From Chryseobacterium capnotolerans (GTDB lineage: Bacteria > Bacteroidota > Bacteroidia > Flavobacteriales > Weeksellaceae), in contig NZ_CP065589.1 in NCBI RefSeq assembly GCF_021278965.1, positions 3,353,001-3,417,000 on the forward strand: a DNA stretch of 64,000 nt, read 5' to 3'. The translations under genes were made by a program, and so were the position numbers. This document shows, piece after piece, positions 16,651 through 54,751 of this stretch; the stretch's first letter is position 1; each line of letters begins with the position of its first letter. The notes beneath the pieces are model-generated. The model saw only the letters and a list, made by a program, of their open reading frames with translations. It made no database searches and was not told the origin of the DNA.

Positions 16651-16950
16651 ATGTCTTTAATAGAAGTAATACAATCTGGAAATTATGAATTGATTGACGT
16701 TCGTGAGCCTATGGAGCTTGAAATGGACGGAAATATAGATGGTGCTAAAAATATTCCACTGGGTGAAGTAGAAGACAGACAGGATGAAATCCTTTCTATT
16801 GAAAAGCCGGTAATCTTGTTCTGCAGAAGTGGAAATAGAAGTGGAAAAGCATTAGAATATCTAAACGCTCAAGGATTAAAGGACGGTCACAACGGCGGAG
16901 GCTGGGCTGAGCTAAAGGCTGTACTTGAAGCAAACAGAGGAACTTTTTAA
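16651..16950 (+). CDS. Rhodanese-like domain protein
   Basis: The 99-residue single rhodanese domain opens with the family's ELIDVREPMELEMDGNIDGAKNIP pattern. The active-site cysteine is in ILFCRSGNRSGKALEYL. It carries or transfers sulfane sulfur in the cytoplasm; partner unknown. A terminator overlaps its 3' end and the HD-domain gene starts 27 bp later. Confidence 0.88.
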   Translation: MSLIEVIQSGNYELIDVREPMELEMDGNIDGAKNIPLGEVEDRQDEILSIEKPVILFCRSGNRSGKALEYLNAQGLKDGHNGGGWAELKAVLEANRGTF

Positions 16951-41660: not shown

Positions 41661-42134
41661 ATGTCTAAATATGATGATGCCTCATGGCATTATGGTGGTG
41701 ATTTTCCTGAAGGACTTCCTCAGAAAAACGGAGCCACACACACTGGTATGTTCCTGAATTGGTGCATCCATAATGATCTGATCTCTGATGAACTGAAGGA
41801 AGATAATGAAGAAGAAATTGAAAAAGTAAAACGAAGAGAAATTACGGGTGCTGAATTTATCATGGATTCTTGTGACGGAAAATTCTCGGAATATGATCTG
41901 AATGATCTTGGAAACAGCTTTGCAAAAGATTATTACGCAGATGATACCGATTTTGGAAACAGATACAGTTCTTTTGCAGATGATTACGTAAATCTTTTTG
42001 ATACCAAGGCAGAAGAAAACGATTATGAATATGAAACCTTCTATCACATTGAAGATACTTATGAAAATTATGATCTGATGAAGCAGGTCATTGATTATCG
42101 TTTTGAAGAATGGAAGGAATATATTAAAGGATAA
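41661..42134 (+). CDS. Conserved hypothetical acidic protein
   Basis: The 157-residue soluble protein begins SKYDDASWHYGGDFPEGLPQKNGATHTGMFLNWC, a strongly patterned N-terminus that suggests a conserved family, followed by very acidic, aromatic-rich sequence (KDYYADDTDFGNRYSSFADDYVNLF). It has no signal, membrane segment or known catalytic motif. I recognise the type but no function. Confidence 0.75.
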   Translation: MSKYDDASWHYGGDFPEGLPQKNGATHTGMFLNWCIHNDLISDELKEDNEEEIEKVKRREITGAEFIMDSCDGKFSEYDLNDLGNSFAKDYYADDTDFGNRYSSFADDYVNLFDTKAEENDYEYETFYHIEDTYENYDLMKQVIDYRFEEWKEYIKG

Positions 42135-42160
42135 AATATAAAGTGCATATTTAATTATTA

Positions 42161-42275
42161 TATTCTGTCATCCTGAATGTAATGGATTGAAATGAAGAAT
42201 CTAAGTCATACATGTGATTCTTCTTCGTCAGAAATCCAAGATTCGACGTAGTCAATGACATTGATAATGACTATA
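42161..42275. repeat. Interspersed repeat remnant
   Basis: TGTCATCCTGAATGTAATGG followed by GAAATGAAGAATCT, and later GATTCTTCTTCGTCAG, resembles the common Bacteroidetes intergenic repeat with the TCATTCTGAA...GAAGAATCT pattern. No gene is present between 42135 and 42330. Confidence 0.45.
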
Positions 42276-42289
42276 TATTTCTAAAAATA

Positions 42290-42322
42290 AAAGGCAAATC
42301 TGCAATAGTATGATTTGCCTTT
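42290..42322 (-). terminator. Terminator of the lipocalin gene
   Basis: AAAGGCAAATC (42290-42300) pairs with GATTTGCCTTT (42312-42322). It lies 9 bp past the restored lipocalin stop codon, which supports that stop. Confidence 0.75.
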
Positions 42323-42330
42323 CTACTTTT

Positions 42331-42872
42331 CTATTGATTATGGTTTACCCAGATCAACTCATCCGTATTATAGCCAATCTTTCTGGCTTTTTCAATGAAA
42401 CGTTGTCTGATGCTTTCCGGGATGGTAGTGGTTCTGGAGAGGATCCACAGATATTTTAGGCTGCTTCCTGCTACCAGAGCATATTGATAATCTTCATCAA
42501 TGTCAATGACATTATAACCGGCCCATATGGGTTTAAAAAAGATACTTTAAGCCGGGCTTCAGTGGAATCTTTAACAAATTTAGCTTCCCCAATAGACTCA
42601 TTCCATACTTTTTTGATATAATCATACCCTTTATTTCTAACCTGAATACTCCCATTAGGATTTTCTGAATATTCTGCAGTGACGTTATTCATGTTTTTCT
42701 CAAATCTATAATCAAAACGGGCAATTTCGTACCATCTTCCGAGATATTTTTTAACATCAAAATTCTTTACTGCCACCGCTCCCCTCGGAATTCCTACAGA
42801 ATATGAATGAAAAGCAATATAGGCTAAAGCTCCCAATGAAACGGGAAGAATTATTTTGTGAAAGGTTTTCAT
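42331..42872 (-). pseudogene. Bacterial lipocalin (Blc-like), split by a frameshift
   Basis: The 5' frame from 42872 encodes a signal-like N-terminus and the lipocalin signature VKKYLGRWYEIARFDYRFEKNM. After KVSF it runs into a wrong frame and stops at 42471. Restoring one T in the six-T run (A at 42535-42540 on the plus strand) gives VSFFKPIWAGYNVIDIDEDY, LVAGSSLKYLWILSRT and a stop at 42331, 180 residues in all. That is the full Blc C-terminus. Lipocalins of this type bind lipids at the outer membrane. The C-terminal half is intact, so a recent mutation or a sequencing error is likely. Confidence 0.88.
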
Positions 42873-42946
42873 AACAGAAATATTTTGTGTGATTCTGATA
42901 AAAACGTCAAAAATAGTGCCTTTGGGTTGTTAAGGAACGATAAATT

Positions 42947-43681
42947 CTAGGAAAAGACCTTCAGAAAATTATCTTTAAAGCTTCCTGAAACCTCAATTTC
43001 AGTATCGTCAGCCAGCATCACTGTTCCGCTTTTATGGTAAGATTTAACGAAAGATGTATTGATGATATGAGAACGGTGAACTCTTACAAAAGGATTTTCC
43101 AAAAGATCATCAAAATGTTTCAAAAATCGGCATACCATTTTTTTTGAACCATCCGTAAGATACACCTGAGTAAAGTTTCCGTCTGCCTGAAGTCTTACAA
43201 TATCCTCTGTTTTCACCACATCAAAACCTTGTAAAGTAGGAAGAATAAGCTGTTGTTTTTCGGGTTTTAATTTCAAATTTTCCAATAGAATTTTATTCCG
43301 GTTCAACTCTTCTTTTTTTTCAAGGCTCTCAACTACTTTATTTACGGCCAGAATGAGTTCCTGAATGTCAATTGGTTTCAGAATATAATAACTTGCAGAT
43401 TTATTTAAAGCCTGTAAAGAATACTGTGAAAATGCAGTAATAAAAATAGTCTCATAGGAAAATTCTTTCGTAGCTTCCAATACATCAAAAGCGTTCCCGA
43501 AAGGCATTTCTACATCTAAAAAAACCAATTGGGGTTGTTTCTCTGCAATCAGGGGTACAGCTTCTTTAATATTTTCCGCTTCACCCAGAATTTCTACCTG
43601 CGGGCAGTATTTAGTAAGATAGCTTCTCAATACTTCTCTTGCTATCAATTCATCATCTACGATTACAGCTTTAATCTTCAT
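42947..43681 (-). CDS. LytTR-family response regulator
   Basis: The 244-residue regulator has a receiver domain (VDDELIAREVL, phospho-Asp about 56 in LVFLDVEMPFG, conserved Lys in YYILKPIDI) and a C-terminal LytTR DNA-binding domain (about 140-244: VRLQADGNFTQVYLTDGSKKMV, FVRVHRSHIINTSFVKSY). LytTR proteins bind paired direct repeats. It is the last gene of a same-strand run that starts with the histidine kinase at 47525. Three paired CACCAAGT repeats nearby are its likely targets. Confidence 0.93.
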   Translation of the reverse strand: MKIKAVIVDDELIAREVLRSYLTKYCPQVEILGEAENIKEAVPLIAEKQPQLVFLDVEMPFGNAFDVLEATKEFSYETIFITAFSQYSLQALNKSASYYILKPIDIQELILAVNKVVESLEKKEELNRNKILLENLKLKPEKQQLILPTLQGFDVVKTEDIVRLQADGNFTQVYLTDGSKKMVCRFLKHFDDLLENPFVRVHRSHIINTSFVKSYHKSGTVMLADDTEIEVSGSFKDNFLKVFS

Positions 43682-43765
43682 TGGATTTAAATATTAGGTT
43701 GCAGGTATAGGTTGCAGATGCAAATTAGGAATATTTGATCAACCCCGCAATCTTCCTAATACAAC

Positions 43766-44182
43766 TCATATTCTTTTCCATTTCCAGGCATATATTACAA
43801 TCAATATCGTGATGATGCATTCCACTGCTGCAAGAAAAACATAGAATAGATACCATTCTGAAAACGATGAAATGCCAATAAGCAGCATCACCACAGTGAA
43901 AAAGATTCCGAAAGCAATATTGAGCATCCTGTTGATAGCAGGTTTCAGAATAAGGGAAAGAAATACCATGACGGCTGGTATTGCCAGGGCTACCGCAGCT
44001 ATTAATAAATTCAATGGAGTATTCAATAGATTATGCCCATCCACAAGCCCCTGAGTTTTCCCGGGAGTATATAACTCGAAGTAATCGCCGTATAAATAAC
44101 ATAATGTAACAGAGGTCCAGAGGCCGGCAAGTATAACCTTCACGTTTACTGGAATATTTTCAAATTGGGTAGAATTATTCAT
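43766..44182 (-). CDS. Small four-helix membrane protein (DUF6326-like)
   Basis: The 138-residue protein has four predicted membrane helices (VKVILAGLWTSVTLCYLYGDYF, LLIAAVALAIPAVMVFLSLIL, MLNIAFGIFFTVVMLLIGIS, FYVFLAAVECIITILIVIYAW). The family assignment is tentative and the function unknown. It starts 6 bp after the DUF4386 gene ends, so the pair is co-transcribed within the two-component locus. Confidence 0.75.
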   Translation of the reverse strand: MNNSTQFENIPVNVKVILAGLWTSVTLCYLYGDYFELYTPGKTQGLVDGHNLLNTPLNLLIAAVALAIPAVMVFLSLILKPAINRMLNIAFGIFFTVVMLLIGISSFSEWYLFYVFLAAVECIITILIVIYAWKWKRI

Positions 44183-44188
44183 GATATA

Positions 44189-44899
44189 TTAGTTTTGCTG
44201 ATGCATATTATTAATAGATTTACTTTTCACTCCTGCAATCAGCAACCACAGACACATTCCTATTTCTCCTATTGAAGCGGGCAATGTGACATATCCTGAT
44301 ATTGCATACTCCGAAAAATCAGAAATCATAGTTCTTCCAAGAACATTCATGATATAACCCCAACAGCCCAGCATTAAAAAAACACCTAAGATTTTGGGTA
44401 AAAAACCGGATCTGTACACTAAGTAACCGAATGGAAATAACCAAAGTCCCCAGAAAACCTGAACAATTAAAATTCCTTTATTATAATTGCTCAGCAGAAG
44501 CATCACCTGAGCCTGTAACTGCTTAGCATCAAATACTTTTAAATAATCAGCCCCCTCAACAATGGTAAGTACAGAAAACTTACTTTGAAGATTCATAAAT
44601 GAAATAGGAACGCTTATGATCGCAAAAATCACCATCAATCTTGCCGCATTTTTATGAGTTCCTTTTAGTAACTGATACAAAACCAAAGGAAGTAATGCAA
44701 AAGCAATATAGCAAAGCATGCTGCTTGCAATACCCGATCTGAATAGAGAAACGGATGAAGAAATATGACGAAAAGTAAGTCCCGGATCTTCCCATACAAT
44801 AAGCTGTGAGGGTACATACATTAGGCTGTAAAAGCCGGTGATGATGACAACAAGATAAATAAATCCTGCTAATCGTGCTGTTTTATTATTGATATTCAT
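44189..44899 (-). CDS. DUF4386 membrane protein
   Basis: The 236-residue protein has six membrane helices and matches the DUF4386 pattern: NNKTARLAGFIYLVVIITGFYS at the N-terminus, FRSGIASSMLCYIAFALLPLVLYQLL and a late SGFLPKILGVFLMLGCWGYI. Function unknown. It lies between the kinase and regulator genes of the LytTR system, so it may be an accessory sensor or a target. Confidence 0.82.
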   Translation of the reverse strand: MNINNKTARLAGFIYLVVIITGFYSLMYVPSQLIVWEDPGLTFRHISSSVSLFRSGIASSMLCYIAFALLPLVLYQLLKGTHKNAARLMVIFAIISVPISFMNLQSKFSVLTIVEGADYLKVFDAKQLQAQVMLLLSNYNKGILIVQVFWGLWLFPFGYLVYRSGFLPKILGVFLMLGCWGYIMNVLGRTMISDFSEYAISGYVTLPASIGEIGMCLWLLIAGVKSKSINNMHQQN

Positions 44900-44998
44900 C
44901 TGATTAGTTTTATACTAATAAGACAATATTTATATCATTTTGGTTACACTAAAAAGTAATTATAATAAAAAATTTCTTTAGAATACCATTTTGGAAAA

Positions 44999-45724
44999 CT
45001 ATTGATATTTTCCGTTTTTGAATTTCAGTGTTTTATAGAATGTTTTTGAAGTTTCTTTTTGTTCACATTCTCCTTTTACTTCTTTGTTTATGGTAGTTAC
45101 AGAAATCGTCTTAATTGTAAGATCTGTAAAATTATTCGTTTTGGATGCATCCATCATGATGTAAGAATGATCATCTTTAAACTCACCGTTGCATCGGGTA
45201 TCCCACTCCCCTGTTGTAGAATTTAATTCAAACTGATCAAGAACTTTTTTCAGGGTTTTCCCTTCCGGATAATACATTGATATGGTACCGGAAGCATAAG
45301 GGTTGGGCTTACTGCTTCCTACAAAATCTGCTTTTACTCCAAAAGCACGAACATTCGGGCTGATATTATACAGTCCGGTATCAATGGCAAAGCTTCTTAG
45401 GGTTATAGCATCAGAATTCAATTCCGTAGGATCAAGATATTTGTTCTTTATGATTCCTTTGCTGTCTGTGATTAAAATATAGTTCTTGACTGTAAAAACA
45501 TAATCTTCTTCCTCCTGGCTCATAACCATTGGAATGACTGAAATATAGGAATCTTCAGCATTAGGCATTTTCTTTTCAGTACAAAGTTCTTCTCTGATCT
45601 TGGTTTTATCCAGTTTCAGGCTTTTAAGAATATGAGTCAGTCTGATACTGTCAACATCCTGGGCAGTTACCATTCCAGAAAAGAAACTAACAATCAAAGT
45701 GAATAGAATTATATTTTTTTTCAT
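44999..45724 (-). CDS. Exported hypothetical protein in the two-component locus
   Basis: The 241-residue protein has a signal peptide (MKKNIILFTLIVSFFSGMVTAQ) and no recognised domain; two cysteines appear near the middle and end (TRCNGEF, GECEQKE). It starts 10 bp after the histidine-kinase stop, so it is translationally close to the kinase and may act with its periplasmic or sensing function. Confidence 0.75.
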   Translation of the reverse strand: MKKNIILFTLIVSFFSGMVTAQDVDSIRLTHILKSLKLDKTKIREELCTEKKMPNAEDSYISVIPMVMSQEEEDYVFTVKNYILITDSKGIIKNKYLDPTELNSDAITLRSFAIDTGLYNISPNVRAFGVKADFVGSSKPNPYASGTISMYYPEGKTLKKVLDQFELNSTTGEWDTRCNGEFKDDHSYIMMDASKTNNFTDLTIKTISVTTINKEVKGECEQKETSKTFYKTLKFKNGKYQ

Positions 45725-45734
45725 GGTATTATTT

Positions 45735-47525
45735 TTATGCCATATTAATATGAATAGTAACCAAAACCCCGCTATTATTTTCCTTATCTTTTACAGAACA
45801 AGCAATATCTTTTTTATACAGATCATTCAATAGCTGAGTTCTTTCCAGTGTATTTTTCATTCCCCTTCCTTCGCGGATTTTCTGATGGTGGGTTTTCTGT
45901 TTTTTACTTTCCTCAATTCCTATTCCGTTGTCTTCAATAGTGATCATTAGATATTTATCCCTTTTCTCAAAGCTTAATTTTAAAAATCCTTTATCTGTTC
46001 TGTAACGCAATCCGTGCCAGATAGCATTTTCAAGGAACGGTTGTACCAGCATTCCCGGAACCTGCAGGTTTTGCATATTCAGGTTCTTATCTACGTCAAT
46101 TTCATAATCAAATTTATCTGCAAAACGTGTTTTTTCCAGTGCCAGATAGTTTTGTAAAAGATCCAGTTCCTGTTGAAAAGGGATAAAATCATCTGTAGAG
46201 TTTTCCATCACCCCGCGCATCAGCTTTGAGAACTTGGTCAGATATTGATTGGCTTCCAATTCGTTATTCGTGGCAATGAAGTGATTGACACTATTCAGAC
46301 TGTTGAAAATAAAATGGGGATTCATTTCCCGTCGAAGCGACTGGAGGGCTATTTTCTTATTTTTGATCTGAACTTTTTTCAGGGTTCTGAAAATGAAAAT
46401 AATCAAACCTGTCAACAGAATCAAGGCCCCGATCAGCCCATAATTGAAAACATTTTTCTTGTGAATAAGCTCATCCTTCAGCTCTTTTTCTTTCTCCAGC
46501 TGTGAAATTCGCTGTTCTGTATCTTCCAGAATCTTATTATCTACAAGGCTTCTGTCTTTGGAAACCAAGTCAGGAAGCTTACCTAAAAAATCTCTGTATA
46601 GCTGAACTGAAGCCTCTACATTTCCTGAAATAGCATACAGGCTGTCCAATTTCTTTACGCTTTTCTGCGCTTCCAGGGTATGCCCTTTGTCCAACGCTAT
46701 TCCGTAGGCATTTTTTAATAGATCGGCAGCCTCTTTGGGATCATTTTTCTTGATATAGATATCCGCCAGCTCTTGAATCTGATTAACTTTCTCCTGAGAG
46801 TTATCTTTTACAAAATCTTCCTTTAGAACTTTCTTTTTAGCTTCAATAGCTTTATCAAAGTTTTTATTTTCTACGTAAAGATTGGCCAGCTTCTGATTAA
46901 TTTCCAGTGCTTGCTGAGGAGATTCTTTTTTAGAAATTTTATAGGCTGCATTAAGGTTTTCTTCAGCTTTGGCAACATCTTTCTGCTGGATATTGATATC
47001 TGCCAATTGGCTGTAGCCTATTGCAACATCAGCCTGCTCATTTTCCTTTTTGCTTAAATTAATATTATTCTGAATGGCCTCTGCTTTCACTTCAGGTGCT
47101 GGAGAAGAAAGCCTTGCTGCATCATTTGAATTAACGGCCCTGCTTTTTGTACTATAAGACATCTCTGCTGCCATATTGTAATTACTGATAGCCGGGGTAA
47201 TTTTATTTTGTTTTTCCTGAGATTGGGCTAATCTTCGGGTAACGATTTCCAGATTTTTCTTATCATTTAGATTCTGATAAAGATTTTTAGCTTTAATCAG
47301 ATACTCTTCACTTTTAGCATAATTTCCCTGGCTGTAATAATCATTAGCCATCCCAACATAAGCATCAGCAACCCCTTTATTGTCATTTTTATCTACTGCT
47401 CTCTTCAATTTCGCGACAGCTTTCACTGCCTGCGAAACCTTCGTAGTATCCTGTGCTGAGAAGTAATTCCCCATCATCAATATTGAAATAAACAGTATTT
47501 TAAAAACTAATTTCACGGATTTCAA
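45735..47525 (-). CDS. TPR-containing LytS-type sensor histidine kinase
   Basis: The 596-residue protein has a signal peptide (VLFISILMMGNYFSAQ region), a large periplasmic TPR array (about residues 40-310, e.g. ADAYVGMANDYYSQGNYAKSEEYLIKA), a coiled coil, one membrane helix (about 358-380) and a His_kinase domain. The phospho-His is in RREMNPHFIFNSLNSVNHFI and the ATPase has LENAIWHGL and EDNGIGIEESK. It is the cognate kinase of the LytTR regulator encoded four genes downstream. The TPRs suggest sensing through protein or peptide partners in the periplasm. Confidence 0.92.
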   Translation of the reverse strand: MKSVKLVFKILFISILMMGNYFSAQDTTKVSQAVKAVAKLKRAVDKNDNKGVADAYVGMANDYYSQGNYAKSEEYLIKAKNLYQNLNDKKNLEIVTRRLAQSQEKQNKITPAISNYNMAAEMSYSTKSRAVNSNDAARLSSPAPEVKAEAIQNNINLSKKENEQADVAIGYSQLADINIQQKDVAKAEENLNAAYKISKKESPQQALEINQKLANLYVENKNFDKAIEAKKKVLKEDFVKDNSQEKVNQIQELADIYIKKNDPKEAADLLKNAYGIALDKGHTLEAQKSVKKLDSLYAISGNVEASVQLYRDFLGKLPDLVSKDRSLVDNKILEDTEQRISQLEKEKELKDELIHKKNVFNYGLIGALILLTGLIIFIFRTLKKVQIKNKKIALQSLRREMNPHFIFNSLNSVNHFIATNNELEANQYLTKFSKLMRGVMENSTDDFIPFQQELDLLQNYLALEKTRFADKFDYEIDVDKNLNMQNLQVPGMLVQPFLENAIWHGLRYRTDKGFLKLSFEKRDKYLMITIEDNGIGIEESKKQKTHHQKIREGRGMKNTLERTQLLNDLYKKDIACSVKDKENNSGVLVTIHINMA

Positions 47526-47571
47526 ATCTTTAGTGCAAAGTAAGTAAAACTTTATCGATCAGCATCTATCC

Positions 47572-47602
47572 TTCACCAAGTCAAAATATAATTTCACCAA
47601 GT
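47572..47602 (+). promoter_or_regulatory. Paired CACCAAGT direct repeats, site 1 (LytTR-type)
   Basis: TTCACCAAGT occurs at 47572-47581 and again at 47593-47602, a period of 21 bp. It lies in the divergent region between the histidine-kinase operon and the amidohydrolase gene. A TATATTTA element starts 12 bp after the second copy (47614-47621). The same pair precedes two other genes nearby. Confidence 0.75.
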
Positions 47603-47659
47603 TTGCTTTTCTCTATATTTACCTGATAACCAACTGCATTTTAAAACCGTTTACAATTT

Positions 47660-47693
47660 TTGATTCGATCGAATAAGGCTTTATGTATATTTG
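47660..47693 (+). promoter_or_regulatory. Possible promoter of the amidohydrolase gene
   Basis: TTG at 47660-47662, a 23-bp spacer and TATATTTG at 47686-47693, ending 20 bp before the ATG at 47714. The repeat pair is about 58 bp upstream of the -33, so a second promoter at 47614 may be the regulated one. Confidence 0.6.
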
Positions 47694-47713
47694 TACTTCA
47701 CTTAAAAGAGACC

Positions 47714-49468
47714 ATGAAAAAATTTCAGTTACTATTGGCTTTGGTTTGTTGCTTTGGTGGTATCAAAGCACAGACTTATATTCAAAATGTTAACATAGCT
47801 GATGTTATCCATAAAAAAATGATTCCTAACCAAACAGTGATCATTACTGATGGCCTCATTACTGCTATTAAATCCAATAAACAGGTGAAAATCCCTCAAA
47901 ACTCGCATATTATCAATGGTAAAGGAAAATATCTCATTCCCGGAATGACTGATTCGCATATCCATTTTTTTCAGAGTGGTGGATTGTATACAAGACCCGA
48001 TGCACTTAATCTGAAAAAACATGTTCCCTATGAGCAGGAAATCAGCTGGGCGCATCATCATATGGAGAATTTCCTTCAATATTATTTGCGGTCAGGAATT
48101 ACTTCTGTAATTGATCCCGGGGCTACCTATAATTTTCTTACACTCCGTGATTCCTTAAAAAAGAAAGATGATCTTCCTTCTGTATATATGTCAGGCCCTC
48201 TTATCACGACATATGAACCGGAAGCTTTTAAAAATCTTGATAAAGACGAACCTTTTAAACTGGCACTAACTGTTGAAGATGCAAAAAAGTATGTTCAGGA
48301 ACAGCTTCCATATAGGCCTGACTTTATCAAAATATGGTACATCATATTGGAAAAAGATCCTCAAAAAGCAAAAGAGCAGACTAAAAAGCTCGAGCCTGTG
48401 ATTAAAACCATTATTGAGGAATCCCATAAGAACAATTTAAAAGTTGCTGTTCATGCCACAGAACGCTTTACAGCCGAAACCGCAGTTCTGAACGGAGCCG
48501 ATTATCTGGTTCATAATATCGAAGATGAAATAGTTTCTGATGATTTTATAAAACTTTTAAAATCTAGAAAAATAGTCCTTTGTCCTACCCTGACTGTATC
48601 TGACAACTATTATGACACCTATGGCCAAAAGAAGCATTACAACACCTATGAACTGGAAAACTCCAATCCGAAAAGTATTGGTTCAATCTACGATCTGAAG
48701 CATCTGGAAGAGACTGCTGATTCAACATGGATTAAAAAATATAAGGTAAGATTTAACTCACAACAGATCAAAACTTATGTTTCCAAAGTGGATTCTATCC
48801 GGGAGGTCAATTTAAAAAGGCTTGCAGATGGAGGGGTAACGATTGCAGCAGGTACAGATGCAGGAAATATAGGAACCCAGCATGCCTCTTCTTTTATGGA
48901 GGAACTTAATGCGATGAAAGAAAGTGGACTGAGCAACTGGCAGATTCTGCAGTCAGCCACAATTAACCCAGCAAAAATCCTTAATAAAGAGGCGCAATAT
49001 GGCAGTATTGAAACTGGAAAAACCGCGGACCTTGTTCTTCTTAGTGCCGATCCCATTGAAGATCTGAACAATTTAACCAAAATTGAAACTGTTATCAAGA
49101 ACGGCAAGACGTTCGATCCTCATAAAATACTGAAGATTACCCCTGAGATACTTGTACAGCAGCAGGTAAATGGCTATAATGCACGAAATATAGATGCTTT
49201 TCTTGAACCCTATGCGGAAGATGTTGAAATCTATTCATTTCCCAATACTTTGCGAAGTAAAGGTAAAGAAAGTATGAGAAAAACATATGAAGCACTATTT
49301 AAAAAGGTGCCGGACCTGCATTGTGAGATAAAACAGAGAATCATTAATCGTAATATGGTTATTGACAAGGAAAGTGTTTCCGGAATAAAGCCTGGTCAGA
49401 AGATAGAAGCTACTGCGATTTATGAAATTAAAGACCATAAAATTTCAAAGGTATATTTCCTTTATTAA
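47714..49468 (+). CDS. Exported amidohydrolase with C-terminal SnoaL-like domain
   Basis: The 584-residue protein starts MKKFQLLLALVCCFGGIKAQ (signal peptide); the ATG 18 codons upstream is rejected because a -7 element lies in that extension. The amidohydrolase core has MTDSHIHFF (metal His), FIKIWYI (possible carboxylated Lys), VAVHATE and LVHNIED (His) and AAGTDAG (Asp). From about residue 485 a SnoaL/NTF2-like domain follows (NARNIDAFLEPYAEDVEIYSFP). It hydrolyses an unknown amide or lactone in the periplasm and is a predicted target of the adjacent LytTR system. Confidence 0.88.
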   Translation: MKKFQLLLALVCCFGGIKAQTYIQNVNIADVIHKKMIPNQTVIITDGLITAIKSNKQVKIPQNSHIINGKGKYLIPGMTDSHIHFFQSGGLYTRPDALNLKKHVPYEQEISWAHHHMENFLQYYLRSGITSVIDPGATYNFLTLRDSLKKKDDLPSVYMSGPLITTYEPEAFKNLDKDEPFKLALTVEDAKKYVQEQLPYRPDFIKIWYIILEKDPQKAKEQTKKLEPVIKTIIEESHKNNLKVAVHATERFTAETAVLNGADYLVHNIEDEIVSDDFIKLLKSRKIVLCPTLTVSDNYYDTYGQKKHYNTYELENSNPKSIGSIYDLKHLEETADSTWIKKYKVRFNSQQIKTYVSKVDSIREVNLKRLADGGVTIAAGTDAGNIGTQHASSFMEELNAMKESGLSNWQILQSATINPAKILNKEAQYGSIETGKTADLVLLSADPIEDLNNLTKIETVIKNGKTFDPHKILKITPEILVQQQVNGYNARNIDAFLEPYAEDVEIYSFPNTLRSKGKESMRKTYEALFKKVPDLHCEIKQRIINRNMVIDKESVSGIKPGQKIEATAIYEIKDHKISKVYFLY

Positions 49469-49509
49469 CTATTATCTTTCCCCGTTTACGAATATAAAAT
49501 ATACTTTAT

Positions 49510-49540
49510 AAAAGACAGTTTCTATATGAACTGTCTTTTT
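49510..49540 (+). terminator. Terminator of the amidohydrolase gene
   Basis: AAAAGACAGTT (49510-49520) pairs with AACTGTCTTTT (49529-49539), followed by further T. Confidence 0.85.
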
Positions 49541-49554
49541 TTATGTATCCAGTA

Positions 49555-49585
49555 TCCACCAAGTGAAAGCCTTCTTCCACCAAGT
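49555..49585 (+). promoter_or_regulatory. Paired CACCAAGT direct repeats, site 2 (LytTR-type)
   Basis: TCCACCAAGT at 49555-49564 and 49576-49585, a 21-bp period. The -7-like TAATTTTA at 49613-49620 begins after a 27-bp gap, and the SIMPL gene starts at 49654. Confidence 0.8.
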
Positions 49586-49653
49586 CTTCCAATTTCCGGC
49601 TCCAGATCTGCCTAATTTTACATCAGTAATTAAAAATTTAAAAACAAGAAATT

Positions 49654-50328
49654 ATGAAATTGAAACATTTTTTATTAATCGGAATTGTAACACTGGGAAG
49701 TTTTGTAAACGCTCAGGAAGTAAAGAAAAACGGAATTGAAGTAACAGGTGTTGCTGAAATGGAAGTAGAACCGGATGAAGTGATCTTCAACATCGGAATA
49801 AAAGCAGATAACAAAAACGATCTTGCAGACAATGAAAAGAAGATGTTCGATATTCTGAAGAATGCAGGAGTAAAGAATGAGGATATCAAATTCAAGTCGA
49901 TGTACCAAAACATTTATGCCAAAAATGGGAAGTTTTCTAAGAGCTATGAGTTTAAAGCCAGTGCAAAATCAAACCTGAGCAAAGTATTTGAAGACCTGAA
50001 CCAGAAATGGGTAAGCAATCTGAGTATTTCAGAAGTAAAAAATACCAAGATTGCGGACTTTAGAAAAGCTGTAAAGATTAATGCTTTAAAAGCTGCGAAA
50101 GAAAAGGCAGATTATCTGTTGGAAAGCATGGGCAAAAAAGTGGGTAATGTTCTTGAAATTGTAGAGATTGAAGATTATACCAGCGACACAGTGATGCCGG
50201 TTGCCTACAAAAGCAGAATGAATAATGTACAGCTTGAAATGGCAGATGCTCCGGTAGATTTTTCTTTTGACAATATCGAAAATATCAAACTGAAATACAG
50301 CATCAAAACAAGATACGAAATCCTTTAA
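49654..50328 (+). CDS. SIMPL-domain (DUF541) exported protein
   Basis: The 224-residue protein has a signal peptide (MKLKHFLLIGIVTLGSFVNAQ) and one SIMPL domain: IEVTGVAEMEVEPDEVIFNIGIK at the N-terminus, a Lys-rich helical middle and the conserved RKAVKINALKAAKEKADYLLESMGKKVGNVLEI. SIMPL/Oxidative-stress-defence proteins are periplasmic with poorly known roles (E. coli YggE is linked to oxidative stress). Preceded by repeat pair 2 and followed by a terminator, so it is a single-gene unit. Confidence 0.9.
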   Translation: MKLKHFLLIGIVTLGSFVNAQEVKKNGIEVTGVAEMEVEPDEVIFNIGIKADNKNDLADNEKKMFDILKNAGVKNEDIKFKSMYQNIYAKNGKFSKSYEFKASAKSNLSKVFEDLNQKWVSNLSISEVKNTKIADFRKAVKINALKAAKEKADYLLESMGKKVGNVLEIVEIEDYTSDTVMPVAYKSRMNNVQLEMADAPVDFSFDNIENIKLKYSIKTRYEIL

Positions 50329-50341
50329 CATTAACAGATTT

Positions 50342-50376
50342 AAAAGAGGCTGCCACATTGTTGGCAGCCTCTTTTT
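50342..50376 (+). terminator. Terminator of the SIMPL gene
   Basis: AAAAGAGGCTGCCA (50342-50355) pairs with TGGCAGCCTCTTTT (50362-50375). The sequence is very GC-rich for this genome. Confidence 0.9.
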
Positions 50377-50423
50377 GTTTGCCACGAATCCACGAATACA
50401 ATAACTCCCAATAGTTTGCAGCC

Positions 50424-50472
50424 TATGTGAAACCTAGATGGTTAAAAAAATAAAGCACATAGGTTTCACATA
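50424..50472. repeat. 13-bp inverted repeat element
   Basis: TATGTGAAACCTA (50424-50436) and TAGGTTTCACATA (50460-50472) are exact complements around a 23-nt AT-rich loop. It resembles other imperfect ACATAG/TAGGTTT elements in this window (53460, 60164). Confidence 0.6.
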
Positions 50473-50535
50473 ATTTTTGAAGCTTATTTATAAAGCCATT
50501 CGTCCATTAGCAGTTAAAAAACATGAGGTTATCTG

Positions 50536-50566
50536 CTCACCAAGTGAAAACCTATCTTCACCAAGT
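50536..50566 (+). promoter_or_regulatory. Paired CACCAAGT direct repeats, site 3 (LytTR-type)
   Basis: CTCACCAAGT at 50536-50545 and TTCACCAAGT at 50557-50566, a 21-bp period. The -7-like TAATTTTA at 50594-50601 follows after 27 bp, exactly as at site 2. The surrounding 65 bp also match site 2 closely. Confidence 0.8.
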
Positions 50567-50625
50567 ATCCCAAATTCCAGCCTTCAATACAGGTAATTTT
50601 ACTTCATAATTTAAAATAATAAACG

Positions 50626-52225
50626 ATGAAACGCTATCTTTTAATCACTCTATTTTCAGCAGTCCTCTTTAAGGCACAGGAAATAAAAAAGGAAATAGAG
50701 ATAAAGCAGGCTACCGTATTTCTTCAGGGAGCCAAAGTCTTCGGAAGCACTACAATCAGTCTTCAAAAAGGAAAAAATAAGGTAAGAATTGTCAATCTGC
50801 CCAATAATCTGGATGAAAATACTTATAAAATCAATCTTGAAAAAAACACGACACTCCTATCCATTACTCCACAGAGTAATTTTTTGAAAAGAAGATCAGC
50901 TTTCTGAAGGTGAGAAAAAGCTGGATGATGAGAGAAAAAAGCTTCAAAGACAGGTAAGCCTGTTAGCGATCCAGATTAAAAATCTTACCGGAGAACAGAA
51001 TATCATCAATGATAATCTAAAAGTATCTACCAACGACAAGTCTACTCCTCAGGAACAGCTTATTAAACTTACTGAGTTTTACAGAAAAAGAATGCTGGAA
51101 ATCGACAACCAGGTCTTTATACTCAATGAGCAGAAAAGTACACTGGACGAAAGCATAGCCAAACTCAATAAACAATCTGACGAGGAACAAACGCATAAAA
51201 ATACCAATCGAAAAGAATTATTGCTTGAAATCCTTGCTGATAATGACACCAGCCTAAACTTGGGAGTCAGCTATATTGTTTCTGATGCAGGCTGGATTCC
51301 TTCTTACGATCTACGGGCTGAATCGGTAAAGAAACCTCTTGAAATGGTTTACAAAGGAAAGATCTATCAAAAAACCGGACAGGACTGGAAGAATATCAAG
51401 TTGTTTGTCTCAACCTACAGACCATCATACAATCAGGATCGCCCTATTCTTTCGCCATTATATGTTGCAGAATATACAGCCCATAATCCAATATTGGAGG
51501 TTGCTGATTACCAATCTAAAAAAGAATCTGCATTAATGAATGCTTATCAAATGAGACAGGAAATAGCTGCAAAACCAAGCCAGATCCCAATAGCTTCTGT
51601 TTCCGATAACCAGATGAATGTGATCTATGAACTGAATTATAACCAAACCATTGTAAGTCAGGAAAAAGAACAATATGTGATTCTGGATAAAAAACAAATT
51701 GATGCTGCTTACAAATACCATACAGTTCCAAAGATAAATAACCAGGTCTTCTTAATGGCTTTTGTAAAAAACTGGCAAAACCTCAATCTCATTAATGGGG
51801 AAGCCAATATTTATTTTGAAGATAATTATATCGGAAAAACCAATATTACCAGCAATTATGTGAAGGATGAATTCCCAATCTCTCTTGGCGTGGATGAAAG
51901 AATCACGGTAAAAAGAATCAAACTGGAAGATAAAGCTTCTCAAAAACCGATGAACTCCAATAAATGGGAAACTGAAACCTATCAGATCAGCATCAGAAAT
52001 AACACCAAAGAAAGTATTGAACTGGAAGTGCTGGATCAGCTCCCAATCAGTGAAAATTCTAAAATATCAGTGAAAGCTATAGAAACCGGAGGCGGAAACC
52101 TTGATGAAAAAACAGGAAGCATTCTTTGGAAAAAAAATATAAGTTCCGGTGGTTCTGATAAGATCAACTTCTCTTATGAGATTAAGTATCCGAAAGATAT
52201 GCAGATTCAATATTACAGCAGATAA
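50626..52225 (+). pseudogene. Mucoidy-inhibitor-A-like DUF4139/DUF4140 protein, frameshifted
   Basis: The 5' frame (50626-50907) has a signal peptide (MKRYLLITLFSAVLFKAQ) and the DUF4140 domain (IKQATVFLQGAKVF). The 3' frame, open from 50891, gives a coiled-coil region and DUF4139 (YIVSDAGWIPSYDLRAES, IYQKTGQDWKNIKLFVST). Removing one A from the run at 50887-50890 joins them as NFLKEDQLSEGEKK, 532 residues. Function of the family is unknown; the name comes from a Pseudomonas locus. It is preceded by repeat pair 3 and followed after 18 bp by the VWA gene. Error or real mutation cannot be separated here. Confidence 0.85.
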
Positions 52226-52243
52226 CCTATAAAAAATAATAAT

Positions 52244-53432
52244 ATGACAACTTTAAAAATCTTAGCCATTGCAGCCGCTTTTTTAAACTCCGGTGTAACA
52301 GCACCCCTTAGCTGCTCGAAAAGTGATTCAGACAACAGAAACTTAACCGTACAAAATGCTTCTGTGCCCACAGTAAATACAATATCAAAGGATAATAAAA
52401 TCCAGGTGGCTCTTTTACTCGATACTTCCAACAGTATGGATGGATTGATTGACCAGGCAAAATCCAGACTCTGGAACATCGTGAATACATTAACCACCTT
52501 AAAGTACAACGGCCAGGCCCCACAAGTAGAAATTGCTCTTTATGAATATGGAAATGACGGCCTCCGGGATGAAAACTATATCCGTCAGGTCACTCCTCTT
52601 ACCCAGGACCTTGATCTGGTTTCTGAAAAATTATTTGCCCTAAGAACCAACGGCGGAAGTGAATATTGTGGGGCTGTGATTCGCGATGCTGCTTCTAATC
52701 TGAATTGGGATGGCAACGAAAAAAAGTATGAAATTGATTTATATTGCAGGTAATGAGCCCTTCAATCAGGGAAAGATTAACTATAAAGAAGTGATCTCAA
52801 AAGCAAAAAATAAAAATATCTATACCAATACCATTTTCTGTGGAAGCCGTGAAGAAGGAATCCGGGACTACTGGCAAAACGGTGCTACAACCGGAGGTGG
52901 GAAATACTTTAATATCGATAGTGACAAAAAGGTTATTTATATTGAAACACCTTATGATATCAGAATTGCCAAATGCAATGCCAAATTGAATGACACCTAT
53001 ATGTATTATGGAAACCGTGGTTCTGAATATAAGATGAAACAAATTGCCCAGGATAAAAATGCAGAAGTACAATCTGTTTCTAATCTGGTAGAAAGAACTG
53101 TTTCCAAATCAAAAAAGAATGCCTACAAAAATGAACATTGGGACCTGGTAGACAAAGCTGAAAAAGATGACCATTTTATTGCCAACATGAAAGAAAGTGA
53201 ACTTCCTGATGAACTGAAAGGGAAAAGCAAAGAGGAAATTAAAAAGTCGGTGGCCATAAAATCGGCAGAACGTGAAAAGATCCAAAGAGAAATCGGTGAA
53301 CTTTCTAAAAAACGTCAAATCTATATTGACGATGAAATGAAAAAAAGAGGAAATGATGATTCTGATGATCTTGGAAAGGCCATTGAAAGCTCTATACAAG
53401 AATTAGCTAAAAAGAATGGATATAGCTTGTAG
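52244..53432 (+). pseudogene. VWA-domain lipoprotein, frameshifted
   Basis: The 5' frame encodes a signal ending in TAPLSC-SKSD (possible lipobox) and a von Willebrand A domain with the MIDAS motif LLLDTSNSMDGL. It leaves frame after WDGNEK. The 3' frame continues MKLIYIAGNEPFNQG, TIFCGSREEGIRDYW and a charged, helical C-terminus. Removing one A from the seven-A run at 52719-52725 joins them (NEKSMKLIYIAGNEPF), 395 residues. VWA proteins bind ligands with a metal ion at the cell surface. It forms an operon with the DUF4139 gene. Confidence 0.85.
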
Positions 53433-53459
53433 CAGATGGTTTAACACGCTGTGAAAATA

Positions 53460-53517
53460 AAGTACACTTAGGTTTTGAATCTTTTGATTTTTCTGCTTAA
53501 GTGTACTTATTTTTTTC
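53460..53517 (+). terminator. Terminator of the DUF4139-VWA operon
   Basis: AAGTACACTTA (53460-53470) pairs with TAAGTGTACTT (53498-53508) over a 27-nt loop, followed by a T-run. The long loop makes it less certain than the other terminators here. Confidence 0.6.
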
Positions 53518-53545
53518 AATAATTTAGTTCATAATTAAAGGTGTA

Positions 53546-54751
53546 CTACCTCCCAAACTTAAAATATCTGGATAATGGATGTTTTTTACCCTTCATAAAC
53601 AAAGAAGTCATTTCCATTCCCGTTACTGAAAAAGTAATTCCGTTTCCTCCAAATCCCAATACAAAGTAAGAATTTTTGAATTTGTGATGTTCTCCGATAT
53701 AAGGAAGCCCGTCCTTTGTTTCTCCAAAAGTTCCTGCCCATACAAAATCGGGATAGAAGTGATAATCCGGTTTTATTTTCTTCAAATTCTTTAAAATTTC
53801 TTTTTCTTTTTTATTGAGAATAGCATCGCGCTTTTTAGCATCATAAAAGTCTTCATCACCGCCGCCTATCAATAATCTGCCATCATCAGTAGTCCGCATA
53901 TACAGGTAAGGATCATCAGTATTCCAGACTAAAGTACTGGTGATATTTTTAAATTTGTCTTTATCTACCTCAGAAACCACAGCATATGTACTTTTCAGAT
54001 TAACGAAGTTTTCTTTCAATAAATTTTTGCTTTCATAACCGATACAATAGATGATTTTCTTCGCTTTAATCTGAAAACCGCTGTCAACTTTAGCAATATT
54101 AAAACCCTTATGATATTCTACTTCCACCATTTCAGTTTTATCAAATATCTTTAATCCTTTTTTTACATTATGCTTAAATAATTCATGAGCAAACTGAAAA
54201 GCGTCAATACTACCGCCTTGCTTAGATAGGATTCCACCATAAGTATTTTCAAATCCAAACTCTTTCAGAACCTGATCTGAATTGAGCCATTGAACATCAA
54301 ACCCTGCCTTTTTCCTGGCTTCATATTCTTTCTTTAACCATTCAACATCTTTTTTCTTCGAAGCAAAATACAAGGATTTTTTACGTTTAAATCCTGCATC
54401 AGAGCGTACTTTATCAACTAGTGCTTCAATGATATCAATCGCCTCTGAACAAGATTTATAACTTGCAATGGCACCTTTTTCTCCTATTTGTTTTATTAAT
54501 TCATAAAGGGGAATATCTATTTCATACTGAAGCATTGAAGTAGTAGCAGAAGTACTTCCATTACAAAGCTCGCGCTGATCAATGAGAATGGTTTCATAGC
54601 CGTCTTTTATCATTTGATGGGCAATAAGACTTCCTGTAATTCCACCGCCAATAATTAAAACATCACAGTTTTCATCTGATTTTAAAGATGGATAAGTAGC
54701 GATCAAGCCATTTTTTAAAAGCCAAAAAGGTTCATTTGATTTGAGATCCAT
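53546..54751 (-). CDS. FAD-dependent oxidoreductase (DAO/DadA family)
   Basis: The 401-residue protein has the FAD-binding DVLIIGGGITGSLIAHQMIKDGY (about 30-52), RELCNGSTSATTSMLQYEID, a central GGSIDAFQFAHEL and a C-terminal GLPYIGEH / FVLGFGGNGITFS segment, the order of D-amino-acid-oxidase-fold enzymes. It oxidises an amine or amino acid; the substrate is unknown. It stands alone on its strand between two rightward genes. Confidence 0.85.
   Translation of the reverse strand: MDLKSNEPFWLLKNGLIATYPSLKSDENCDVLIIGGGITGSLIAHQMIKDGYETILIDQRELCNGSTSATTSMLQYEIDIPLYELIKQIGEKGAIASYKSCSEAIDIIEALVDKVRSDAGFKRKKSLYFASKKKDVEWLKKEYEARKKAGFDVQWLNSDQVLKEFGFENTYGGILSKQGGSIDAFQFAHELFKHNVKKGLKIFDKTEMVEVEYHKGFNIAKVDSGFQIKAKKIIYCIGYESKNLLKENFVNLKSTYAVVSEVDKDKFKNITSTLVWNTDDPYLYMRTTDDGRLLIGGGDEDFYDAKKRDAILNKKEKEILKNLKKIKPDYHFYPDFVWAGTFGETKDGLPYIGEHHKFKNSYFVLGFGGNGITFSVTGMEMTSLFMKGKKHPLSRYFKFGR

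Follow-up and report, generated by a model that had tools for sequence, protein, structure and literature searches.

Three pairs of direct repeats with a 21-bp period lie close to a two-component system in a 64,000-nucleotide stretch of the Chryseobacterium capnotolerans genome (contig NZ_CP065589.1; hereafter the window), which encodes a sensor kinase with tetratricopeptide (TPR) repeats and a response regulator with a LytTR domain. We find that the pairs, each built on the octamer CACCAAGT, are probably operators of this adjacent TPR-kinase/LytTR system, serving a SIMPL gene, a MuiA-VWA gene pair and the system's own operon, a reading to which we assign a probability of roughly 0.8. Operator function for this system is strongly supported by the sequence comparisons presented here, and both activation of SIMPL and MuiA-VWA and autoregulation of the kinase-regulator operon appear likely. 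The motif, the spacings, the target sets, the co-occurrence and the relocation were computed, and we infer regulator binding, activation, autoregulation and an envelope signal. The main features are as follows.

47572..47602, + strand: pair 1, most likely the operator of the oppositely running kinase-regulator operon (motif; spacing to the -7-like box of the kinase)
49555..49585, + strand: pair 2, predicted operator of SIMPL (motif; -7 spacing)
50536..50566, + strand: pair 3, predicted operator of MuiA-VWA (motif; -7 spacing)
47536..47543, - strand: -7-like box TTACTTTG of the kinase operon, one mismatch to TAnnTTTG, 30 nucleotides (nt) from pair 1
45735..47525, - strand: sensor kinase with TPR repeats, one apparent membrane segment (by eye), His_kinase and HATPase_c
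42947..43681, - strand: response regulator, receiver and LytTR domains (PF00072, PF04397), 244 amino acids (aa), proposed binder of the pairs

The paired motif in the window and the genome

All six repeats are intergenic, on the plus strand and 21 bp start to start, exactly at the coordinates that an initial annotation of this DNA had claimed for them: TTCACCAAGT at 47572-47581 and 47593-47602 in pair 1, TCCACCAAGT at 49555-49564 and 49576-49585 in pair 2, and CTCACCAAGT at 50536-50545 followed by TTCACCAAGT at 50557-50566 in pair 3. Exact CACCAAGT-N13-CACCAAGT pairs occur three times in the window and not once in 100 dinucleotide shuffles of it, in agreement with the earlier statement that the paired motif is found nowhere else there; a tolerance of three mismatches adds one unconvincing place, 16737-16765 on the minus strand (0.40 expected). 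The genome-wide search that had been suggested as a check returned the window's three pairs as the only matches at up to two mismatches in the single contig of 5,357,258 bp, compared with one match for a reversed control pattern; this was a pattern search rather than a profile scan, and weaker sites may exist. With repeats of 10 nt and a gap of 11 nt the pairs fall within the range published for LytTR sites (repeats of 9-11 nt, 11-13 nt apart; PMC4847170).

A probable operator-promoter module

A scan with the regulator yielded 80 named loci, nearly all from Chryseobacterium and one from a Weeksellaceae bacterium. The pair is present in all 80, at 204 sites (at most one mismatch per repeat, with the spacer signature given below), none of which falls within the 18 reference genes used for comparison. 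Across the window and these loci (81 loci, 1.69 Mb, 370 exact octamers) the octamer is repeated directly at 21 bp 144 times and at 42 bp once, with no other direct spacing and no inverted octamers within 60 bp. Three of the 169 unique sites found at up to one mismatch lacked the S-A-A-A spacer start and were dropped, one of them chance-like and two (in L007 and L080) genuine-looking; the profile of the remaining 166 reads YYCACCAAGT-SAAA-N7-TTCACCAAGT-YT and is followed by a -7 box, which stands 27 nt behind the pair in 118 of these sites and 28 nt behind it in 24. Counted over the 195 unique pairs of the 81 loci, a TAnnTTT start is found at 27 nt in 132 and at 28 nt in 35, every other distance being represented by 0-4 pairs. 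The pair described at first is part of a larger element, which includes the spacer signature and the -7 box.

This -7 box is of the Bacteroidetes type and at target promoters usually comes without a -33 element: shuffles predict TTG at the -33 distance in 20 of the 164 unique target promoters, and 8 have it. At kinase promoters it is found in 26 of 56 unique cases (5.7 expected from shuffles). Since the -7 box matches TAnnTTTG, the sigma-A consensus placed at -12 to -5 in Flavobacterium psychrophilum (PMC9723704), the octamers would lie at about -68 to -40. Judged from sequence, the layout of the module is that of an activator-dependent promoter type.

A palindromic inner dyad, GTGAAA-N6-TTTCAC, was considered as the real site and rejected: besides the lack of inverted octamers, C occupies position 8 in 21% of sites and G position 21 in only 1%, and the A at position 11 (94%) is opposite a T in only 51%.

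Genes behind the pairs

The predicted targets in the window, with the neighbour of pair 1, are these.

49654..50328, + strand: SIMPL (DUF541) protein, target by domain match and position behind pair 2
49613..49621, + strand: -7 box TAATTTTAC of SIMPL, 27 nt behind pair 2
50626..52225, + strand: MuiA family gene (DUF4140/DUF4139), target, in two frames, 50626-50907 and 51092-52225
50594..50602, + strand: -7 box TAATTTTAC of MuiA-VWA, 27 nt behind pair 3
52244..53432, + strand: VWA gene behind MuiA, target, in two frames, 52244-52753 and 52710-53432
47714..49468, + strand: amidohydrolase beside pair 1, not counted among the regular targets

Over all loci the genes behind pairs encode SIMPL, MuiA, VWA, a second SIMPL-domain protein, a 191-aa protein, a second VWA protein, a 117-aa lipoprotein-like protein and, once, a rhodanese-like protein. 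We tallied the -7 box at 27 or 28 nt for 207 sites in the 81 loci, and it is found at SIMPL (75/86 sites), MuiA (37/38), VWA (17/17), the second VWA (7/7), the second SIMPL (18/20), the 191-aa protein (10/10), the rhodanese-like protein (1/1) and the lipoprotein-like protein (2/5), that is, at 167 of 184 sites of all known targets except the amidohydrolase; sites without a known gene have it in 2 of 5. This fixed spacing lends good support to SIMPL and the DUF4139 (MuiA)-VWA pair as regulon targets, as had been proposed. The amidohydrolase, named as a target in the same proposal, has the box at only 1 of 18 sites, and we therefore regard it as a neighbour rather than a regular target; it has a -7-like sequence of its own, TATATTTG at 47686-47693, 83 nt behind pair 1.

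The targets look exported, as read by eye from their N-termini, and the further targets in other species are small proteins that likewise look exported. A rhodanese-like gene stands behind a pair at L073:5597-5625 in Chryseobacterium and at L175:6617-6645 in g35, a genus of a second family treated below, and is predicted to be a rare extra member of the regulon.

Pair 1 and the kinase-regulator operon

Pair 1 has a constant relation to the kinase promoter. In 84 loci (the window, the 80 named loci and three of other genera) the start of the pair lies 29 or 30 nt from a kinase-strand T(A/T)nnTTTG in 82, the exceptions being L239 and L242, a count that needs the second base relaxed, as was done after TTACTTTG appeared in the window's group. 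All 83 candidate pairs beside the kinase point away from it. Because of the constant 29-30 nt spacing, pair 1 would mainly serve the kinase-regulator operon, of which it is most likely the autoregulatory operator; control of its own operon, which had been called possible, is thus better supported than was claimed.

Co-occurrence of the pair and the regulator

A comparison of related species carrying the kinase and regulator, which the initial annotation had suggested, shows that the pair follows this regulator's ortholog within the genus, in four genomes of other genera of the family and in a second family, as expected of the LytTR two-component regulon that had been predicted. In Chryseobacterium the regulator gave 167 matches with E of 1e-40 or lower, and removal of four paralog-level ones left orthologs in 163 of 173 genomes, with G128 (E 2.5e-75, 75% complete) counted among them. 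The pattern is hit in 166 of the 173 genomes, including all 163 with the ortholog, and is missing from 7 of the 10 without it (Fisher 1.5e-10), while the reversed control gives hits in 8 of 173, one each. Individual hits in the genus were inspected among the matches listed; the hit of G107 and the second ones of G102 (C6) and G170 (C3) lack the spacer signature and are chance-like.

In the family outside the genus the regulator was tested in the 10 genomes with a hit and in 40 of the other 137, and was present in four (G175, G201, G206 and G236), all among the 10. The same four are the only ones with the spacer signature; the hits in the other six (G255, G259, G260, G275, G278 and G316) lack both signature and regulator and are chance-like. 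In genus g35 of the second family, probably Flavobacterium, 23 of 121 genomes have a regulator ortholog, 64-69% identical. Here a local variant keeps the 21-bp period with a second repeat that mostly reads CACCATTT in place of CACCAAGT (loci L174-L184), and it lies within 5 kb of the regulator in 20 of the 23. At up to one mismatch the pattern is hit in 16 of the 23 genomes with the regulator versus none of the 98 without it; seven of the 98 have a hit, always at two mismatches, and the reversed control has hits in 3 of 121. All 11 g35 loci examined in detail have a 21-bp pair, 10 before VWA and one before the rhodanese-like gene. In G520, of a third family, whose regulator is 46% identical, an exact pair stands before VWA. 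Residue 203 of the regulator is K in g35 and R in the Chryseobacterium rows; a simple residue-203 code does not hold, because G520 has K203 together with two CACCAAGT repeats.

Pairs also stay with targets that have moved. In G004 one contig carries the regulator and kinase at 585-588 kb and, at 2,601-2,603 kb, SIMPL together with two nearby pairs; in G029 about 210 kb separate SIMPL from the regulator, and MuiA in G075 is about 19 kb from it in the orientation opposite to the usual one, the target keeping its pair in both genomes; in G175, a fragmented assembly, the pair and MuiA are on a contig different from that of the regulator. Retention over distances of up to 2 Mb indicates that the association is more than linkage.

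Weighing the interpretations

Several observations weigh against the regulon as set out above. Three of the ten Chryseobacterium genomes without the regulator have a hit (G107, G020 and G135), that in G107 being chance-like and the other two assemblies fragmentary (370 contigs in G020; 600 contigs and 73% completeness in G135). The seven regulator-less genomes without a hit also lack SIMPL and a close MuiA, which makes loss of the locus as a block possible; the co-occurrence is not independent evidence, the species being related and the locus perhaps disappearing as a unit. In the family outside the genus the raw hits (10 of 147 genomes) are at the chance level set by the reversed control (11 of 147), the local variant is missing from three of the 23 regulator-bearing g35 genomes, and eight of nine distant regulators (44-49% identical) have no such pair. 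The kinase spacing depends on the relaxed second base, strict TAnnTTTG giving a box at 29 or 30 nt in only 51 of 79 loci.

The pairs might instead be operators of a DNA-binding protein other than this regulator, whether a LytTR protein too or an unlinked factor, with the two-component system a mere neighbour. The genome encodes 19 LytTR domains and binding by this regulator is a prediction; presence of the pair nevertheless follows the ortholog of the window's regulator, in the second family likewise, and G012, G013, G109 and G155, whose match is at paralog level (E about 1e-44 to 1e-46), have no pair. We consider such a binder unlikely. Only slightly more probable is that the regulator does bind the pairs but represses, its phosphorylation or dephosphorylation freeing the targets and a brake acting at the kinase promoter. 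The frequent -33 and -7 elements at the kinase promoter (26/56) mean that it could run unaided, and repression may act at the kinase operon. The target pairs, in contrast, precede the promoter core instead of overlapping it, which together with the depletion of TTG at the -33 distance leads us to expect activation there. That the pairs are chance occurrences, dispersed repeats or an RNA leader element has next to no probability: hits in genomes without the regulator are indeed at chance level, but shuffles yield none, the 204 sites in 80 loci avoid the 18 reference genes entirely, no Rfam match was found in 42000-54000, and the pairs stand upstream of the predicted transcription start.

Under the favoured reading, regulation by the TPR-kinase/LytTR system, two regulator molecules, presumably phosphorylated, would occupy the two direct repeats, two helical turns apart, just upstream of a promoter with a -7 box and usually no -33 element, and would recruit RNA polymerase to SIMPL and MuiA-VWA and, elsewhere, to further small exported-looking proteins. 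Pair 1, facing away from the kinase, would very probably adjust the system's own expression, and in many relatives its equivalent may also serve a divergent target. More tentatively, and with more doubt than confidence, we suggest a dedicated envelope-surveillance regulon of Flavobacteriales, in which the TPR kinase and LytTR regulator would control SIMPL, MuiA, VWA and lineage-specific proteins, a changing set whose members are small and probably exported and would thereby share one task, by way of one asymmetric operator with two divergent promoters, the target head-on and the own operon tail-on.

The regulator and the kinase

Both domains of the regulator score over their cut-offs (PF00072, 60.1 bits; PF04397, 44 bits), and FVRVHRS at residues 198-204 matches FhRhHRS, a signature of LytTR response regulators (PMC4227749). 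An AlphaFold2 model (mean predicted local distance difference test score 79.3, predicted template modelling (TM) score 0.49) has as its best Foldseek match in the PDB full-length ComE (4cbv, E 3.2e-11), and the matches include the LytTR-domain structure 3d6w; with a TM score of 0.41 over the whole chain and a root-mean-square deviation of 19 A, the domain arrangement of ComE is not matched. The best 50 VIA-align rows are proteins with receiver domains in which a LytTR domain is not shown, and the best 60 rows of two PDB sequence searches mainly cover the receiver part. Residues F170, M182, C184 and R185 show no variation among 27 motif-positive regulators and are changed in most of 8 negative ones; this contrast is confounded by relatedness, and we do not claim it as a specificity code.

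The kinase matches PF06580 over the cut-off (77.2 bits), its N-terminal part consists of TPR repeats, and no membrane sensor domain is among its Pfam matches. LytS-type kinases have a sensor part with multiple membrane helices. The kinase here shares the His_kinase domain PF06580 with the LytS/YpdA type but, by its Pfam matches, lacks a LytS-like membrane sensor part.

Relation to known systems

AgrA and ComE of Gram-positive bacteria are regulators of quorum-sensing systems. They resemble the present regulator in joining a receiver to a LytTR domain and in the FhRhHRS signature (PMC4227749). LytTR operators are described as having a common geometry and no common consensus (PMC4847170). A close likeness is to YpdA/YpdB of Escherichia coli, whose LytTR regulator likewise uses a pair of direct repeats, about 10 bp each, located upstream of its target promoter. 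The YpdB repeat is GGCATTTCAT, in contrast to CACCAAGT here, and YpdB has one target (yhjX) and a pyruvate signal (PMC4847170), whereas the system here has a TPR sensor kinase and several targets besides its own operon. The LytTR regulatory systems of Streptococcus mutans similarly have direct repeats 11-13 bp apart directly upstream of the operon promoter, with autoregulation, but in them the partner of the LytTR regulator is a membrane inhibitor protein (PMC6193735), where the system here joins a receiver-bearing regulator to a histidine kinase.

The part available of a coevolution study with Flavobacterium johnsoniae mentions a mutation in a LytTR regulator without naming the locus (PMC10197871). 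In a literature search by title and start of abstract, with subscription journals mostly outside its scope, this regulon was not found among the matches listed, and none of those for the octamer concerned this operator by title. The kind of system is known; the matches listed gave no account of the regulon, the operator grammar or the link to SIMPL, MuiA and VWA, which appear to be new. They give a complete operator-promoter module at base resolution, in a phylum whose promoters are unusual and with 166 unique sites from which specificity can be read, and tie SIMPL/DUF541, MuiA/DUF4139 and VWA, which are widespread and of unassigned function, to one predicted regulator, so that a shared role can be tested by removing a single gene.

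Other observations on the locus

One further gene of the kinase operon belongs on the feature list.

44999..45724, - strand: kinase-operon protein, whose ortholog in L204 belongs to the PA3715 family (NF052451) above the cut-off

This protein, which has no Pfam match, is conserved between kinase and regulator in many loci of the genus and may belong to the sensor system as its third component. Genes for DUF6326 and DUF4386 membrane proteins (43766-44899) also sit between kinase and regulator in the window, L153 and L204, an insertion absent from most of 20 compared relatives.

MuiA and VWA, each split into two frames in the window, are single frames of 532 aa and 395 aa in the relative L204, and VWA is a single 395-aa frame in L222 as well. 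The lipocalin gene at 42471-42872 is likewise shortened, to 133 aa as against 179 aa in L204. Three broken genes so close together in a one-contig assembly that is 95% complete are more suggestive of indels in the assembly than of genuine gene loss.

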